Translations under genes and position numbers: made by a program
The notes under the pieces: model-generated
What the model saw: the letters and a program-made list of their open reading frames with translations, nothing else
What the model was told of the DNA's origin: nothing
Database searches by the model: none
Shown here: positions 1 through 34,136 of the stretch, piece by piece
Position numbering within the stretch: position 1 is the stretch's first letter
Layout of the letters: each line of letters begins with the position of its first letter
NCBI RefSeq assembly: GCF_900106795.1
Contig: NZ_FNNS01000001.1
Span: 1 to 64,000 of the forward strand
Direction: 5' to 3'
Source of the DNA: Aequorivita viscosa
GTDB taxonomy: Bacteria > Bacteroidota > Bacteroidia > Flavobacteriales > Flavobacteriaceae
Length of the DNA stretch: 64,000 nt

Positions 1-19
1 CAGTTCCTAACGATCTATG

Positions 20-54
20 AAAAAAGGGTCAGACTTTAAAAAGTCTAACCCCTG
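20..54 (-). terminator. Rho-independent terminator, works on both strands
   Basis: An inverted repeat pairs GGGTTAGACTTT with AAGTCTGACCC around a short A/T loop. On the minus strand it is followed by a run of T (plus-strand positions 20-25). It lies just downstream of the small DUF6520 gene and should end that transcript. Confidence 0.75.
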
Positions 55-88
55 TTATTTTAAACTTACACACTTAGCGGGATAGTGT

Positions 89-331
89 CTATAATGTTTT
101 TAAACAGCTAGTTGGTCCACTACGACCAAAAACCTGCAATCCATTATGTGTACAAGGAAGGTCAACAATACCTGAACATTTACCGTGGGGCTGGCAAACC
201 CCATCCACGTAAATATATCCTTGCTCAAGAGCAAAATCCTCTTGTCCGTCAGTCTGTGTGGCAAATGCTGCCGCTATGGCTATCATAAACGCCACCACAG
301 GTAATAAAAACTTGAATTTAATAGTTTTCAT
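89..331 (-). CDS. DUF6520 family small exported protein
   Basis: An 80-residue protein with an N-terminal hydrophobic signal segment (about residues 7-25, ending near AFATQ) and a short secreted tail. The tail has four cysteines (C46, C52, C60, C76), enough for two disulfide bonds. Length and layout match the DUF6520 family of Flavobacteriia, whose function is unknown. It lies just downstream of, and on the same strand as, a MauE/DoxX-type membrane protein that carries a CSC motif. This suggests that the membrane protein handles the thiol state of the peptide (inference). A strong terminator follows. Family assignment is by recognition of the sequence pattern; function is not claimed. Confidence 0.75.
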   Translation of the reverse strand: MKTIKFKFLLPVVAFMIAIAAAFATQTDGQEDFALEQGYIYVDGVCQPHGKCSGIVDLPCTHNGLQVFGRSGPTSCLKTL

Positions 332-1906: not shown

Positions 1907-2044
1907 CTTTGCCTGTATTAAATTTATTATAAAATTAAACTTAGATAAAGGCACAACCCTATGGCTCACACTTAGAATCAGTATGGTCAAAACCATATAT
2001 TTAGAGCGCATCAAAACTATTTTTATAATCAACAGCCGCATCCA

Positions 2045-2502
2045 CTCCCCTTTAGGGCGGAGGGTAACCTTTGGAGCAACCCCCAACCCCTAAAGGGGAG
2101 AATAGAAACTCATCATACTCAAATCAACAGCCGCATCCAGCTCCCTTTAGGGCGGGGGGGTAACATCCTGATAAGACCCCCAACCCCTAAAGGGGAGAAA
2201 AGAAACTCATCATACTCAATCAACAAAACGAACAAAGTCCCCTTTAGGGCGGAGGGTAACCTTTGGAGCAACCCCCAACCCCTAAAGGGGAGAATAAAAA
2301 CTCATTACACTCAAATCAAAAGCCGAATCTAGCTCCCTTTAGGGCGGGGGGGTAACCTTTGGAGCAACCCCCAACCCCTAAAGGGGAGAATAAAAACTCA
2401 TCATACTCAAATCAACAGCCGCATCCAGCTCCCTTTAGGGCGGGGGGTACTGGCCTTCATTTCAATAAACAACCGAACCAAGCAACCTTTAGGGGTGGAG
2501 GC
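2045..2502. repeat. Tandem palindromic repeat array A1
   Basis: Four full elements of about 55 bp start at 2045, 2141, 2238 and 2333, a period of 95-97 bp, followed by half elements at 2429 and 2484. Each element has a left arm like TCCCCTTTAGGGCGGAGGGT and a right arm like ACCCCCAACCCCTAAAGGGG, which pair into a long imperfect hairpin. The core CCCCTAAAGGGG is itself palindromic. Linkers between elements are conserved (AATCAACAGCCGCATCCAG type). The array runs into the upstream flank of the MauE-like gene and continues as array A2 beyond the DUF559 gene. Confidence 0.9.
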
Positions 2503-2539
2503 AAGCCAGAGCGTGAATCACATCAATCAGCATAATAAA

Positions 2540-2956
2540 CTAGCTTTCTTTAGGTTTCGGGGAAATTCCTGAGATATATTTTTCTAAATCAGTCAATACT
2601 TTTCCAATTGAGTTGATTACTTCCTTATTACTAAAGCGAATTATATGAAGACCTTGTAACTTTAAAAGCTCACTCCTTTCAATATCCTTACTAATTTGAT
2701 CTGCTCTATTGTGATATTCTCCATCGATTTCAATTATCAATCTTAATTCATGACAATAAAAATCTACGATATAAATATGGATAGGATGTTGTCGTCTAAA
2801 CTTATAGTCTTGTAGTTGCTTATTCTTTAAAAACTGCCATAGTCTCTTTTCAGCCTCTGTCATGTTTTGGCGAAGAATCTTAGCTTTAATAAAGGAACTT
2901 GGAGGTGCTCCCTTATGCATTCCTTGGTTGTGATATGGATTTTTGTCATTTTTCAT
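2540..2956 (-). CDS. DUF559 endonuclease-like (Vsr-fold) protein
   Basis: A 138-residue protein with the DUF559 domain across residues 22-127. The visible family signature runs from TEAEKRLW (33-40) through VDFYC (64-68) to EIDGEYH (76-82). D65, E76 and D78 are candidate metal-binding residues of a PD-(D/E)XK/Vsr-like nuclease fold. No partner methylase or restriction gene is near. The gene is flanked on both sides by arrays of the same hairpin repeat, with about 40 bp and 140 bp of separation. This is a layout reminiscent of transposases that sit among the palindromes they mobilise (inference). The substrate is unknown. It appears intact, and ATG at 2956 is the only good start. Confidence 0.85.
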   Translation of the reverse strand: MKNDKNPYHNQGMHKGAPPSSFIKAKILRQNMTEAEKRLWQFLKNKQLQDYKFRRQHPIHIYIVDFYCHELRLIIEIDGEYHNRADQISKDIERSELLKLQGLHIIRFSNKEVINSIGKVLTDLEKYISGISPKPKES

Positions 2957-3097
2957 TATGAGAAATTAAAAAGCTTCTTGCAAGGAAGATTTATAATAGT
3001 AATAATCATTTCGTATGTGTATAATTCTTTTCCGTTTAGCCTCTAATTCTTAAGGTTTGAGCTGGTCACAATACGATAATCAACTTAACGAATCCAG

Positions 3098-3672
3098 TCC
3101 CCTTTAGGGCGGAGGGTACCATCCTGAGAAGACCCCAACCCCTAAAGAGAGAATAAAAACTCATCATATTCAAATCAACAGCCGAATCCAGTTCCCTTTA
3201 GGGCGGAGAGTAAAAGCCGTCAATTCCAGCAACTTAACGAATCCAGTCCCCTTTAGGGCGGAGGGTAACCTTTGGAGCAACCCCCAACCCCTAAAGGGGA
3301 GAATAAAAACTCATCATATTCAAATCAACAGCCGAATCCAGCTCCCTTTAGGGCGGGGGGTACTGGCCTTCATTTCAATCAACAGCCGAATCCAGTCCCC
3401 TTTAGGGCGGAGGGTAACCTTTGGAGCAACCCCCAACCCCTAAAGGGGAGAATAAAAACTCATCATATTCAAATCAACAGCCGAATCCAGCTCCCTTTAG
3501 GGCGGGGGGTACTGGCCTTCATTTCAATCAACAGCCGAATCCAGTCCCCTTTAGGGCGGAGGGTAGTGTCCTTCATTTCAATCAACAGCCGAATCCAGTC
3601 CCCTTTAGGGCGGAGGGTAAAAGCCATCACTTCCAGCAACATAACGAACAAAGCTCCCTTTAGGGCGGGGGG
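3098..3672. repeat. Tandem palindromic repeat array A2
   Basis: This continues array A1 on the other side of the DUF559 gene. Full hairpin elements occur near 3098-3151, 3247-3302 and 3397-3450. Half elements with only the CTCCCTTTAGGGCGG arm occur near 3191, 3343, 3491, 3544, 3599 and 3653. The right end abuts the 3' end of the response-regulator gene. Open frames of 80-164 codons through this array are repeat artefacts. Confidence 0.9.
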
Positions 3673-3688
3673 TAACATCCTGAGAGCA

Positions 3689-4369
3689 TCAAAGAAACCC
3701 CTCCTCCCGAGCTCGAGTAATAAGATGAATATCATTACCGTCTTCAACCTCAAAAATTTCCTTTAAGCGTTTTTTCCTTCTTTCAATTCCAGGAAGAGAA
3801 AGAGGTACATAATTTGGCAAGTCCTTAGTCTGCTTTCCAGCCGAAATATAATAGATAATAAGTCTATCCAGTCTGTCCAAATGATAATTAAACCCATGTT
3901 GTTTTCGAAGAAACTTGATAACGGTTTTACTATAATAGGGAGGGTCTTCTAATACGTCCAAAACTGCGTCCATAAAATTTTCAGGTACTAAATCGCTCTT
4001 TATTATTAAACCTTCTGGGTTTATACTTTCCAATAAATTTTGAATCAGTAAATTGTTGTCGAAAGTGGTAATTATAATGATTTTTGTTTGTGGAAACTTT
4101 TTTCTAATGACTATCCCCAAATCCTCACCCGATTGGTACTGGTTATTCGAATCCTTTGGTAATTGAATATCGAGAAAAACCAAATGCAATAGCCTATAAT
4201 TAAACCACTCGTTCAACTCCCTTAAAGCAGCATCGATAGTAGTGGAATGCGTAACAGTAAATTGATATATATTGGATGTCCTATTTATTCCTTCTAAAGC
4301 ACTAGAATAACCCACTAAAGTCATTTTGTGGTCATCAACCATTAAAACGTTTATATTATTAGTTTCCAT
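3689..4369 (-). CDS. Response regulator, NarL/LuxR-like
   Basis: A 226-residue two-component response regulator. The receiver domain (residues 6-145) has acidic residues D12-D13, phospho-acceptor D67 in VFLDIQLP, T101-T102 and K124. The C-terminal part (about 163-210) is helical with PLSLPGIERRKKRLKE as the likely recognition region, in the position of a LuxR/GerE helix-turn-helix though divergent from it. The start codon lies 3 bp after the stop of the TPR histidine kinase, so the pair is co-transcribed and the kinase is its probable partner. Targets are unknown. The 3' end runs up to repeat array A2 with no terminator visible. Confidence 0.88.
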   Translation of the reverse strand: METNNINVLMVDDHKMTLVGYSSALEGINRTSNIYQFTVTHSTTIDAALRELNEWFNYRLLHLVFLDIQLPKDSNNQYQSGEDLGIVIRKKFPQTKIIIITTFDNNLLIQNLLESINPEGLIIKSDLVPENFMDAVLDVLEDPPYYSKTVIKFLRKQHGFNYHLDRLDRLIIYYISAGKQTKDLPNYVPLSLPGIERRKKRLKEIFEVEDGNDIHLITRAREEGFL

Positions 4370-7236: not shown

Positions 7237-7528
7237 TGTGTGATATTTTTAAATTAAAAATTCATTTAGATCATTGTGCACAATGAAACAGACCAAAAGG
7301 TCTCAAGGAGAGCAACTTCCTCACGACTAAGATATAGGAAGTATAAATTAATTTTGGAAATTATAAGTCTCATTCAGTTATTAATAGGATTGTGCAAGTG
7401 AAGTGTATATCAGCAACAGTAAAGTGATGGATTTGTGATAAAAACACAAATTCCATAACCAATTTCCAATCAGAAAAATGAGATACATGCAATAAATCCT
7501 TCCGCTGTTCTTTGTAATTTTCAAAAGC

Positions 7529-9170
7529 CCAATCCAGCCCCCTTTAAGGCTGGGGTATTTCCTGTTCAAGACTTTTACTCAACCCCAGAACAATCCAAAA
7601 GCTCCCTTTAGGGCTGGGGCAAACCAAGAAATAAACTGATAATTAGGTCAAACACTAAGTAATCAAATTCACCTATTTACTTCTAAATCGTTTCATCGCT
7701 CCCTTTAGGGCTGGGGGTAATTCTTGGTTAGAGCTAGAGTATTTCCTTGTTCAAGACTGTTATTTAATCATTAGAACAATCCAAAAGCCCCCTTTACGGC
7801 TGGGGTATTTCCTGTTAGAGCTAGGGTAATTCCTGTTCAAGCCTTTGACTTAATCATTAGAACAATCCAAAAACTCCCTTTAGGGCTGGGGTAATTCCTG
7901 TTACGGCTAGGGTATTCCCTATTCTAGACTTTTACATAATCATTAGAACAATCCAAAAGCACCCTTTAGGGCTGGGGCAAACGAAGAAACAAACTGATAA
8001 TTAGGTCAAACATTAAGTAATTAAATTCAATTCCACTTATTTACTTCCAAATCGTTTCATAGCTCCCTTTAGGGCTGGGGTATTTCCCGTTTGGGTTGAG
8101 GTATTTCCTGTTCAAGACTTTTACTTAATCATTAGAACAATCCAAAAACTCCCTTTAGGGCTGGGGCAAACCAAGAAACAAACTGATAATTAGGTCAAAC
8201 ACTAAGTAATCAAATTCACCTATTTACTTCTAAATCGTTTCATCGCTCCCTTTCGGGCTGGGGTATTTCCTGTTTGGGCTGGGGTAATTCCTACATAATA
8301 CATTACTCAACCCCCAGAACAATCCAAAAGCTCCCTTTAGGGCTGGGGTATTTCCCGTTAGGGCTAGGGTATTTCCTGTTCAAGACTTTTATTTAATCAT
8401 TAGAACAATCCAAAAGCTCCCTTTAGGGCTGGGGCAAACCAAGAAATAAACTGATAATTAGGTCAAACATTAAGTAATTAAATTCAATTCCACTTATTTA
8501 CTTCCAAATCGTTTCATCGCACCCTTTAAGGCTGGGGTATTTCTTGGTTAGAGCTAGGGTAATTCCTGTTCAAGCCTTTTACTTAATCATTAGAACAATC
8601 CAAAAGCTCCCTTTAGGGCTGGGGCAAACCAAGAAATAAACTGATAATTAGGTCAAACATTAAGTAATTAAATTCAATTCCACTTATTTACTTCCAAATC
8701 GTTTCATCGCACCCTTTAAGGCTGGGGTATTTCTTGGTTAGAGCTAGGGTAATTCCTGTTCAAGCCTTTTACTTAATCATTAGAACAATCCAAAAGCTCC
8801 CTTTAGGGCTGGGGCAAACGAAGAAACAAACTGATAATTAGGTCAAACACTAAGTAATCAAATTCACCTATTTACTTCTAAATCGTTTCATCGCTCCCTT
8901 TAGGGCTGGGGTAATTCGTGTTACGGCTTGGGTATTTCCCGTTAGGGCTAGAGCAATTCCTGTTCAAGACTTTTACTTAATCATTAGAGCAATCTAAAAG
9001 CTCCCTTTAGGGTTGGAGTAATTCGTGTTACGGCTGGGGTATTTCCCGTTAGGGCTGGGGTAATTCCTGCATAATACATTACTCAACCCCTAGAACAATC
9101 CAAAAACTCCCTTTAGGGTTGGGGTAATTCGTGTTACGGCTGGGGTAGCCCCTCTAGGGTTGGGGTAAAT
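7529..9170. repeat. Repeat array B (CTCCCTTTAGGGCTGGGG family)
   Basis: About 1.6 kb built from many copies of a CTCCCTTTAGGGCTGGGG core embedded in longer higher-order units. Recurrent modules include GAACAATCCAAAAG before the core, GGTATTTCC or GGTAATTCC after it, and an AAACTGATAATTAGGTCAAA module followed by CAAATCGTTTCATCGC. The core shares CTCCCTTTAGGG with arrays A1/A2, but the complementary arm is absent here. There is no gene inside; a 62-codon frame at its left edge is a repeat artefact. Confidence 0.9.
8404..8783. repeat. Perfect 190-bp tandem duplication inside array B
   Basis: Positions 8404-8593 and 8594-8783 read as identical 190-bp units, each starting AACAATCCAAAAGCTCCC and ending ACTTAATCATTAG. 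A third, diverged unit follows. Identity over the full length points to very recent duplication. Confidence 0.9.
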
Positions 9171-9228
9171 TAGGTAATACCAAACACCATAACTCCATAT
9201 CCCAATCAGAATCAAAGAACACTCATCG

Positions 9229-11113: not shown

Positions 11114-11395
11114 ACGTTTAAGCTAGTATAACCCTACTAAACCCCTAGTATCATACTACTATCACAAAAAAGCATAGAATGTTAATTCCAAGTCAAAAAA
11201 CATAATTCAACAACGTATTCAGCTCCCTTGAGGGCGGGGGGTAAGCCACTGTCATACTTACTTTGTACATAACGGATTATCATACTACTATCACAAAAAG
11301 ATCATAAACTAAAAACACCCAGTCCCAAAACTTAATCAATAGCCAAACCTACCTCCTTTATGTTGAGGTAAAAATCAAAACGATCAATAAATTTG

Positions 11396-11786: not shown

Positions 11787-11795
11787 ACATCCCCT

Positions 11796-12000
11796 GCTAG
11801 CGCAAGCGTCTCGCTTGTGTCTCCGCTAGCTTAGCATAAAAAGAGATGGTTGTTATCGTCCCTCGCTAGCGCAAGATTCTCGCTTGTGTCTCCGCTAGCT
11901 TAGCATAAAAAATAGGCAGTTGTTATCGTCCCCCGCTAGCGCAAGCGTCTCGCTTGTGTCTCAGTTAGATTAGCATCAAAAAGAGACGGTTGTTATCGTC
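11796..12000. repeat. Three 69/70-bp hairpin repeats
   Basis: Units start at 11796, 11865 and 11935. Each begins GCTAGCGCAAG, continues through CTCGCTTGTGTCT and closes with a complementary CGCTAGC-like arm (the third copy is degraded here), then a TTAGCATAAAAA...GTTGTTATCGTC linker. GCTAGCG pairs with CGCTAGC and CAAGCG pairs with CGCTTG, giving a nested stem-loop. Confidence 0.9.
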
Positions 12001-12091
12001 TCCACAAGTCACCACCGTCCCCCAAGTCCCCCCACACCCCAAGACAATCACGAGGCCTATCAAATTTAAATGCAACAAACCCCCAACTATC

Positions 12092-12312
12092 AACCCAAAG
12101 GTGGCTGAGTGAATTTCAGCGTGCGCAGCAAGCAGAAACTTGTACCGAATCCAATAATTAATAAAACTAACAACCCAAAGGTGGCTGAGTGAATTTCAGC
12201 ATGCGCAGCAACGCTGAAATTAGTACCGAATCCAATAGTTAATAAAACTAACAACCCAAAGGTGGCTGAGTGAATTTCAGCGTGCGCAGCAAAGCTGAAA
12301 TTAGTATCGAAG
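12092..12312. repeat. Three 80/81-bp direct repeats
   Basis: Units start at 12092, 12172 and 12253 with AACCCAAAGGTGGCTGAG, then a partly self-complementary TTTCAGCGTGCGCAGCA...GCTGAAA stretch and GTACCGAATCCAATA. They differ by a few substitutions, and the last is cut short at the end of the TRIC gene. Confidence 0.9.
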
Positions 12313-33932: not shown

Positions 33933-34136
33933 AGTTAAAATTTATCTTTTGTTTTTTAATAAAGTTTGTGTTTAAAAATAAAAGGAAGAAGGTTTTCCTA
34001 GCTATTCTCAACAGTGCAAATATGTGAACAAAAAAGTTATAAAAAAAACCCTTTAGGGCTTGAAATATTCAATTGTTTTCGCCATACTTCACTTTCGATA
34101 AAACTACAAAAAATCTTTTGTAATAACTACTATATT

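Follow-up and report, generated by a model that had tools for sequence, protein, structure and literature searches.

Among the known systems closest to the locus reported here is the REPtron, i.e., REP or REPIN palindromes together with their RAYT enzyme (TnpA_REP), in which a small nuclease gene is surrounded by short palindromes in inverted doublets and arrays, the palindrome is specific to the enzyme type, and gene-less copies are present elsewhere. The DUF559 loci of the current study share these properties and differ in two respects, since their enzyme is a Vsr/EDxHD-like nuclease of the PD-(D/E)XK type (PF04480), whereas RAYT is a HUH/Y1 transposase (PF01797), and since the DUF559 unit is also found in frame inside genes. 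The REPs of RAYT systems have a stem that is tagged with GTAG on one end, and palindromic repeats that are not GTAG REPs occur widely. In the accessible part of a 2013 survey, CGTC-tagged and untagged REPs are described as palindromes of Alphaproteobacteria, Bacteroidetes, and others that mostly occur as inverted dimers; those with the CGTC tag, which have stems of 8 to 9 bp beginning with AT pairs and loops of 4 to 5, were apparently without a dedicated transposase (PMC3733652). These palindromes occur in bacterial groups that overlap with those investigated here, and the DUF559 hairpins may belong with the untagged REPs of that part of the survey, the comparison being one of descriptions only (PMC3733652). 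Rickettsia palindromic elements (RPEs), according to the accessible part of the source, are about 150 bp long and encode a short peptide (PMC10969869). The likeness lies in a palindromic element located in frame inside protein-coding genes, as for the copies in RecG and LeuRS described below, whose hairpins are translated as part of the frame, but the DUF559 inserts put the nuclease domain itself inside the protein, and the host belongs to the Bacteroidota rather than to Rickettsia, as judged by a LeuRS segment of a congener, for which the best plasmid records were from Phocaeicola, Bacteroides, and Parabacteroides at 67%. A link between DUF559 and palindromic repeats was not found in the open literature, most subscription papers being outside the scope of the search; DUF559 is mentioned in 14 papers of the collection searched, none of which, judged by titles and the opening lines of abstracts, deals with it next to palindromic repeats (one concerns CRISPR).

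The window, i.e., the whole stretch of 64,000 nucleotides analyzed here (positions 1-64000 of contig C56), belongs to a genome of 3.54 Mb in 62 contigs (G000), whose single PF04480 match at an E-value threshold of 0.001 is the DUF559 gene of the window. Its relevant features are as follows:

2540..2956, minus strand: DUF559 gene encoding a Vsr-like nuclease of 138 aa (Pfam PF04480, E 3.6e-35)
2027..2447, no strand assigned: left array of four inverted doublets and one single half-unit (Tandem Repeats Finder, 4.4 copies of 96 bp), with half-units at 2046/2081, 2141/2178, 2238/2273, 2333/2369, and 2429
3089..3675, no strand assigned: right array of three inverted doublets and six single half-units (Tandem Repeats Finder, periods of 149 and 54 bp), with half-units at 3098/3133, 3192, 3247/3282, 3342, 3396/3431, 3491, 3545, 3599, and 3654
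2046..2099, plus strand: complete doublet of a half-unit, a middle part of about 13-16 nt, and an inverted half-unit (folding of 2040-2101)
7538..9125, plus strand: array B with related half-units (CTCCCTTTAGGGCTGGGG), on the plus strand throughout and with no DUF559 gene inside
11223..11241, plus strand: lone outlying half-unit with 1 mismatch

The earlier note on this DNA had placed the DUF559 gene between two arrays of one hairpin element with about 20 full or half units in 1.6 kb, and this was borne out by half-units on both sides, 21 in number. Fourteen are located on the plus strand (2046 to 3672) and seven on the minus strand (2081, 2178, 2273, 2369, 3133, 3282, and 3431), and 14 of the 21 pair into seven inverted doublets flanking the gene. 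A regular spacing of about 96 bp, also noted before, holds for the left array only, because the periods of the right array are 149 and 54 bp. Array B and the outlying copy reported near 11222 were both present as described. Array B does not adjoin the DUF559 gene, which counts against a DUF559-repeat element model. Exact CCCTTTAGGG cores numbered 20 in 2045-3672 and 13 in 7500-9200, and one was located at 34049. Genome-wide, the pattern CYCCCTTTAGGGCKGRGGG with up to three mismatches had 48 matches in 3.54 Mb (reversed-pattern control: 1), 41 of them in C56:2046-11241, i.e., within 9.2 kb of the DUF559 gene; the enrichment check proposed at the outset placed 21 of the 48 within 2 kb of this sole DUF559 gene. 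Folded as single-stranded DNA, the doublet 2046-2099 reached -16.4 kcal/mol (z -3.7; 0 of 200 shuffles as good), and a second doublet of the window had a z of -2.6 (5 of 200 shuffles as good). The final codons of the DUF559 gene (PKPKES) seem, when read by eye, to lie on a degenerate half-unit.

The structure predicted for the window protein (mean pLDDT 83.5) was compared with known folds. The putative endonuclease 3hrl was both the closest Protein Data Bank entry by sequence (E 2.1e-17) and the top Foldseek match, followed by 3r3p, the catalytic domain of the homing endonuclease I-Bth0305I (E 2.1e-4, TM 0.79 on the target); the match to Vsr (1vsr) was weaker, with a probability of 0.98 but an E value of 0.049. 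The columns that are invariant across 25 sequences include E36, D65, E76, D78, and H82. PADLOC yielded weak matches (mREase_II, E 1.5e-6; DpdF, E 2.4e-4). Vsr appears to share the fold of YcjD, the DUF559 protein of Escherichia coli, which the accessible part of a 2005 survey lists as a known PD-(D/E)XK member and whose profile detected Vsr (PMC1189080). According to the part of the source available, ycjD is located between sapF and fabI in E. coli, and other lineages have eefRABCD there (PMC12817139). At least 80% of the sapF-fabI/ycjD region was covered in 3,362 of 5,426 genomes; no hairpin was detected at the ycjD locus under the rule, and degenerate remains were seen by eye. The relation to Vsr raises the alternative that DUF559 is a host repair enzyme for Vsr-like mismatch or hairpin processing, kept beside unstable hairpins, and the DUF559 protein VsrA of Caulobacter, in the accessible part of its description, is linked to DNA damage, affects the SOS response, and has been proposed to be a repair enzyme (PMC12907096). 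We nevertheless regard this alternative as very improbable: PF04480 matches are present in 119 of the 249 genomes of the window's own family and 130 do without one, genomes contain several DUF559 types that each have a separate hairpin, and insertions are located in operons and housekeeping genes, with probable scars (see below).

DUF559 genes are associated with hairpins far beyond the window. The earlier note had suspected, without verification, that DUF559 and repeats are linked elsewhere, and the link proved to be real and wider than proposed in two sets of 81 and 80 loci: in the Bacteroidota family of the window as well as in a set of mainly proteobacterial loci, hairpins lie no more than a few hundred bases from most of the standalone DUF559 genes examined. 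For the family set, standalone, full-length DUF559 frames without stops were chosen among the matches listed, and 80 regions, mostly of 18 kb, plus the window were searched, i.e., 81 loci. The fetched regions hold 81 standalone frames, as L111 contains two, one of which was used; G147:C117, G050:C39, G223:C71, G174:C12:487406, and the weaker G135:C1:917040 were left out. Under a strict rule (perfect, GC-rich, arms of at least 7, loop of up to 8), hairpin density within 500 bp was 2.44 per kb upstream and 3.09 per kb downstream, with hairpins at 60 of the 81 loci on each of the two sides; it dropped to 0.47 and 0.35 per kb at 0.5-1 kb and to 0-0.27 per kb beyond 1 kb, so that the density beside DUF559 exceeds that found beyond 1 kb about tenfold or more. 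Hairpins were located on either side at 71 of the 81 loci and, as in a REPtron, on both sides at 49. A relaxed rule detected a pyrimidine-rich hairpin within 400 bp at 73 of the 81 loci versus 58 of 1,580 distant windows of the same size, and the loci without a hairpin numbered 8 under the relaxed and 10 under the strict rule. A chance origin of the repeat pattern was rejected on the basis of these distant windows and the reversed-pattern controls. In examples from this set, the hairpin on the left has a C-rich tail and the one on the right a G-rich tail, frequently with a pair on each side of the gene. The orientation of the tails beside the gene could be decided on neither side at 21 of the 47 loci that have hairpins both left and right. 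An interpretation of the hairpins as plain DUF559 terminators was rejected because their density is similar on both sides and because they occur in arrays.

The second set comprises the best 80 of at least 556 confirmed stretches found in a species collection with an alphaproteobacterial alignment as the query; most belong to the Pseudomonadota by title, and the gene end was fixed at 4310 for most stretches. Among these best 80 of at least 556, pyrimidine-rich hairpins reached 3.5-3.7 per kb within 250 bp and no more than 0.2 per kb farther off, and they were present upstream at 52, downstream at 51, on either side at 67, and on both sides, the REPtron arrangement, at 36 loci; 13 of the 80 had no hairpin under the rule. 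The density of hairpins of any sequence with arms of at least 8 fell from 4.0-4.4 per kb near the gene to 0.2-0.7 per kb away from it. According to a mechanical count, the frame runs past the start of the hairpin at 36 of the 80 loci of the second set and at 11 of the 81 family loci, which indicates that hairpin-coded protein tails are common. A tblastn search of plasmid records revealed 43 with relatives, eight of which were read. GC-rich hairpins were located within 500 bp at six of these eight loci, from cyanobacterial, alpha- and gammaproteobacterial, and Deinococcus records, and none within this distance at the other two, from E. coli and Synechocystis; the plasmid loci L142 and L146 also contain many further hairpins at a distance (6 and 12, respectively).

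The hairpin type tracks the DUF559 protein rather than the host genome. Between genomes, hairpin similarity correlated with DUF559 identity (Mantel r 0.463; 0 of 2,000 permutations as high, the highest being 0.152) for the 73 loci that remained after the 8 of 81 without a hairpin had been dropped. DUF559 pairs from different genomes with at least 60% identity had a hairpin similarity of 0.83, and the value for 24 pairs inside one genome was 0.70, no more than for unrelated pairs. All 12 standalone loci in the DUF559 clade of the window had the CCCTTTAGGG core within 2 kb of DUF559, as against none of the 69 others; the clade has a support of 84/47, and the match of 12 of 12 was noted after the tree had been seen. 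In congeners, 14 of these cores are located near L122 and 12, 14, and 20 in L285-L287, at genome places other than that of the window. A nuclease family that matches hairpins type by type is a candidate for the enzyme of palindromic repeats that seem to have no transposase of their own.

DUF559 and the hairpins also go together in their distribution over genomes. Either of two hairpin patterns was present in 55 of the 249 genomes, and a standalone DUF559 gene was found in 40 of these 55 versus 24 of the 194 pattern-negative genomes (Fisher 1.5e-17), in a test whose two patterns cover part of the hairpin diversity only. The genome lists were compiled by hand from the matches listed, and the standalone list includes G135 and the stop-bearing G040 and G044. 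This supports the co-occurrence looked for in the earlier note. Against it, among the matches listed, 15 of the 55 pattern-positive genomes lack a standalone DUF559 gene, and four of them, with 2-6 pattern copies each, lack any PF04480 match. In G176, a five-copy array is located on a contig without DUF559 among the matches listed, and one of the two G176 matches is outside those listed. DUF559 might also be a passenger that inserts into or survives in clusters of REP-type hairpins moved by another enzyme, e.g., a Y1 transposase (RAYT/IS200-like). PF01797 (Y1_Tnp), which we take to be the RAYT family, is present in 97 of the 249 genomes and has seven matches in the genome of the window; over genomes, Y1 and DUF559 are correlated (p 6e-7), and before DUF559 is fixed the patterns correlate with Y1 as well (32/55 vs. 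65/194, p 0.0016). However, among DUF559 genomes the presence of PF01797, the sole alternative enzyme family compared, was independent of the patterns (26/40 vs. 16/24, p 1.0), whereas among PF01797-negative genomes DUF559 was found in 14 of 23 pattern-positive versus 8 of 129 pattern-negative ones (p 7e-9). The association with DUF559 thus persists without PF01797, and that with Y1 vanishes within DUF559 genomes, which shows that a Y1 transposase is not needed; as the mover of the hairpins it was rejected. Pattern and standalone DUF559 occur together without PF01797 in 14 genomes (e.g., G027 with 12 copies), the hairpins of different DUF559 types within a genome resemble each other no more than those of unrelated types do, and isolated units, e.g., Deinococcus locus L145 and the RecG inserts, consist of DUF559 between hairpins with no other genes. 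Taken with these observations, a role of DUF559 as a mere passenger appears quite unlikely.

DUF559 loci are polymorphic for the insertion between genes, and the site of the window, like the RecG and LeuRS sites described below, varies in occupancy among congeners. In the congeners G266, G263, and G257, response-regulator or kinase homologues come after the MauE-like gene on one contig, and in G254 and G259 the MauE side alone was seen; neither a DUF559 match nor a core was present in these five congener stretches. In Deinococcus psychrotolerans, DUF559 is located between paaD and paaZ and has long inverted ends, and in Deinococcus sp. QL22 paaD adjoins paaZ with no gene between them and a diverged spacer. 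In Sphingomonas, the DUF559 gene is located between sufB and sufC. The Deinococcus locus L145 has terminal inverted repeats of about 50 bp as judged by eye, and the RecG inserts likewise have terminal inverted repeats. Such ends resemble those of insertion sequences and MITEs, but a known transposase family is absent, and DUF559 is the sole gene seen inside the isolated units. A clean target-site duplication was not found: the RecG insert replaces about nine bases, and the empty intergenic sites are too diverged for a base-level reading. All seven Azospirillum records covering the query carry the element, and the genus of G218 has one genome, so that it offers no congener for an empty-site comparison.

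DUF559 copies were furthermore located within RecG, LeuRS, and MetH, and fusions with HemD and HisD were found as well (locus reading; Pfam on 8 examples). Among the matches listed, 36 are located in open frames of at least 700 codons, and one MetH frame contains two DUF559 copies in tandem. In the genus of the window, the RecG site was compared in 27 of 28 genomes, 16 of which were virgin, six full, and five of scar length. Four of the five scar-length sites hold sequence that resembles element ends by eye, L350 not clearly so, and these sites are probably scars of the element. The LeuRS site was filled in 8 of 28 genomes, with two subtypes at the same place. Pyrimidine-rich hairpins within 200 bp were located upstream of 16 and downstream of 12 of the 21 LeuRS copies, upstream of five and downstream of five of the six RecG copies, upstream of two and downstream of one of the two HemD copies, and upstream of none and downstream of one of the four MetH copies, versus 15 of 695 control windows. 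The embedded copies L043 and L046 were left out of this count and of the tree of 115 DUF559 domains, in which the LeuRS, RecG, and MetH copies constitute one clade (100/95), with the RecG and the MetH copies each forming a single clade. On the recG tree, which is poorly resolved and whose bootstrap is not settled, the full sites are scattered, with six changes for six rows, no better than shuffled. The single-clade in-gene copies and the scattered full RecG sites are consistent with an element that is gained and lost repeatedly, in the manner of homing elements. The reading frames are uninterrupted and the DUF559 domain is still a good match to its family, as would be expected from ordinary domain fusions that provide RecG, LeuRS, or MetH with a useful nuclease domain. 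Such fusions are hardly credible in view of the patchy occupancy among congeners, the scar-length sites, the two DUF559 copies in tandem in one MetH, and hairpins at the RecG and LeuRS copies (for MetH at 1 of 4 only) that resemble those of intergenic copies.

Overall, we consider it probable that there is a family of very small mobile elements whose coding part is the DUF559 gene and which use the following mechanism. The unit would consist of a C-rich tail and hairpin, the DUF559 gene, and an inverted hairpin with its tail. The nuclease, with its Vsr/EDxHD-type PD-(D/E)XK fold, would recognize its own hairpin ends, probably in single-stranded or extruded form, and nick them, and repair or replication would then copy the unit, or gene-less hairpin pairs, to a new place. 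The repeats of the window would be gene-less copies amplified around the resident enzyme. For the lineage with in-frame copies, homing into an identical site of one gene is the probable way in which the enzyme spreads. With respect to the repeat-mobilizing pair suggested in the earlier note, the association, its type specificity, and the insertion polymorphism stand, mobilization of the repeats by the enzyme has the indirect support of covariation, insertions, and probable scars, and we infer that DUF559 recognizes and cuts the hairpins, and how they are copied. A further alternative is that DUF559 spreads as a homing endonuclease that cuts alleles lacking it, the hairpins being structural ends or by-products of repair rather than the substrate. 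The second best fold match to the EDxHD homing enzyme I-Bth0305I, the clades of the RecG, MetH, and LeuRS copies, and the full RecG sites scattered among congeners are in line with it; the site-specific in-gene copies are a further likeness to EDxHD homing endonucleases, but no intron or intein was seen around the DUF559 gene, the ends are hairpins, and most examined copies are intergenic. As homing alone leaves unexplained why the hairpin sequence follows the protein, why gene-less copies and arrays are present elsewhere, and why standalone genes occupy many different intergenic sites, we judge it to be rather unlikely as the complete explanation. Homing and recognition of hairpins are compatible and can both be true.

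The chances seem about even that the joint reading holds in full, according to which DUF559 elements, represented in Bacteroidota, Pseudomonadota, Cyanobacteriota, and Deinococcota at least, are a separate class of autonomous mobile element and the missing enzyme of RAYT-less palindromic repeats, i.e., a hairpin-directed homing nickase, one lineage of which has become an intein-like parasite without splicing, located in frame in essential proteins (LeuRS, RecG) and passing through a cycle of invasion, scar, and re-invasion. In our reading, the system works like REP/RAYT with an unrelated enzyme, and the behavior of one lineage is that of a homing element that does not splice. If this is true, a large family that is still called a domain of unknown function would obtain a function, and a compact structure-directed nuclease would be on offer. 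Annotators would be warned that hairpin-coded tails and in-frame insertions in LeuRS, RecG, MetH, and HemD are probably mobile DNA.

Gene-less hairpin copies, i.e., doublets, singles, and arrays, are present elsewhere in several of these genomes. Seven copies in G077 share little beyond the hairpin and its tail. In G248, one hairpin occurs in ten dispersed copies, nine of which have a longer repeat in common whose left edge is sharp.

In a congener (region L280, contig G266:C28), the site corresponding to the window unit is empty: the spacer that separates the MauE-like gene from the response regulator has no DUF559 gene. It carries roughly three copies of another repeat, CGTCATTGCGAGCGCAGCGCGG with its variants. 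Since a different repeat fills this site, the spacer seems to be receptive to several repeat families. The CCTCCCTTT hairpin occurs five times, repeating every 191 bp or so, at G176:C10:16740-17526, and this contig has no DUF559 among the matches listed. Genome G248 harbors nine copies of a dispersed repeat (L149 to L156 and L158), most of which are at least 200 bp long; the repeat has a sharp left boundary and includes a single hairpin of the type associated with the local DUF559.

Within the window, Tandem Repeats Finder revealed two tandem arrays (11792-12000 and 12085-12311) in addition to those at DUF559 and array B:

Tandem array at 11792-12000: unit of 70 bp, 3 copies, core GCTAGCGCAAGC
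Tandem array at 12085-12311: unit of 81 bp, 2.8 copies

The sequence at the contig edge (window positions 1-95) has further copies of 89 to 95 bp on additional contigs of this genome (98 to 100% identity) and is also present in several congeners (85 to 98% identity). It is a dispersed repeat and probably the cause of the assembly break at this position.

In Escherichia coli, the region of the DUF559 gene ycjD, located between sapF and fabI, matched a median of four places per genome when used as a query, and one strain matched by a 41-bp piece only; judging from these matches, the sequence around ycjD may in part belong to a dispersed repeat. Two tandem DUF559 domains were found within a single methionine synthase frame in genome G215 (locus L034).
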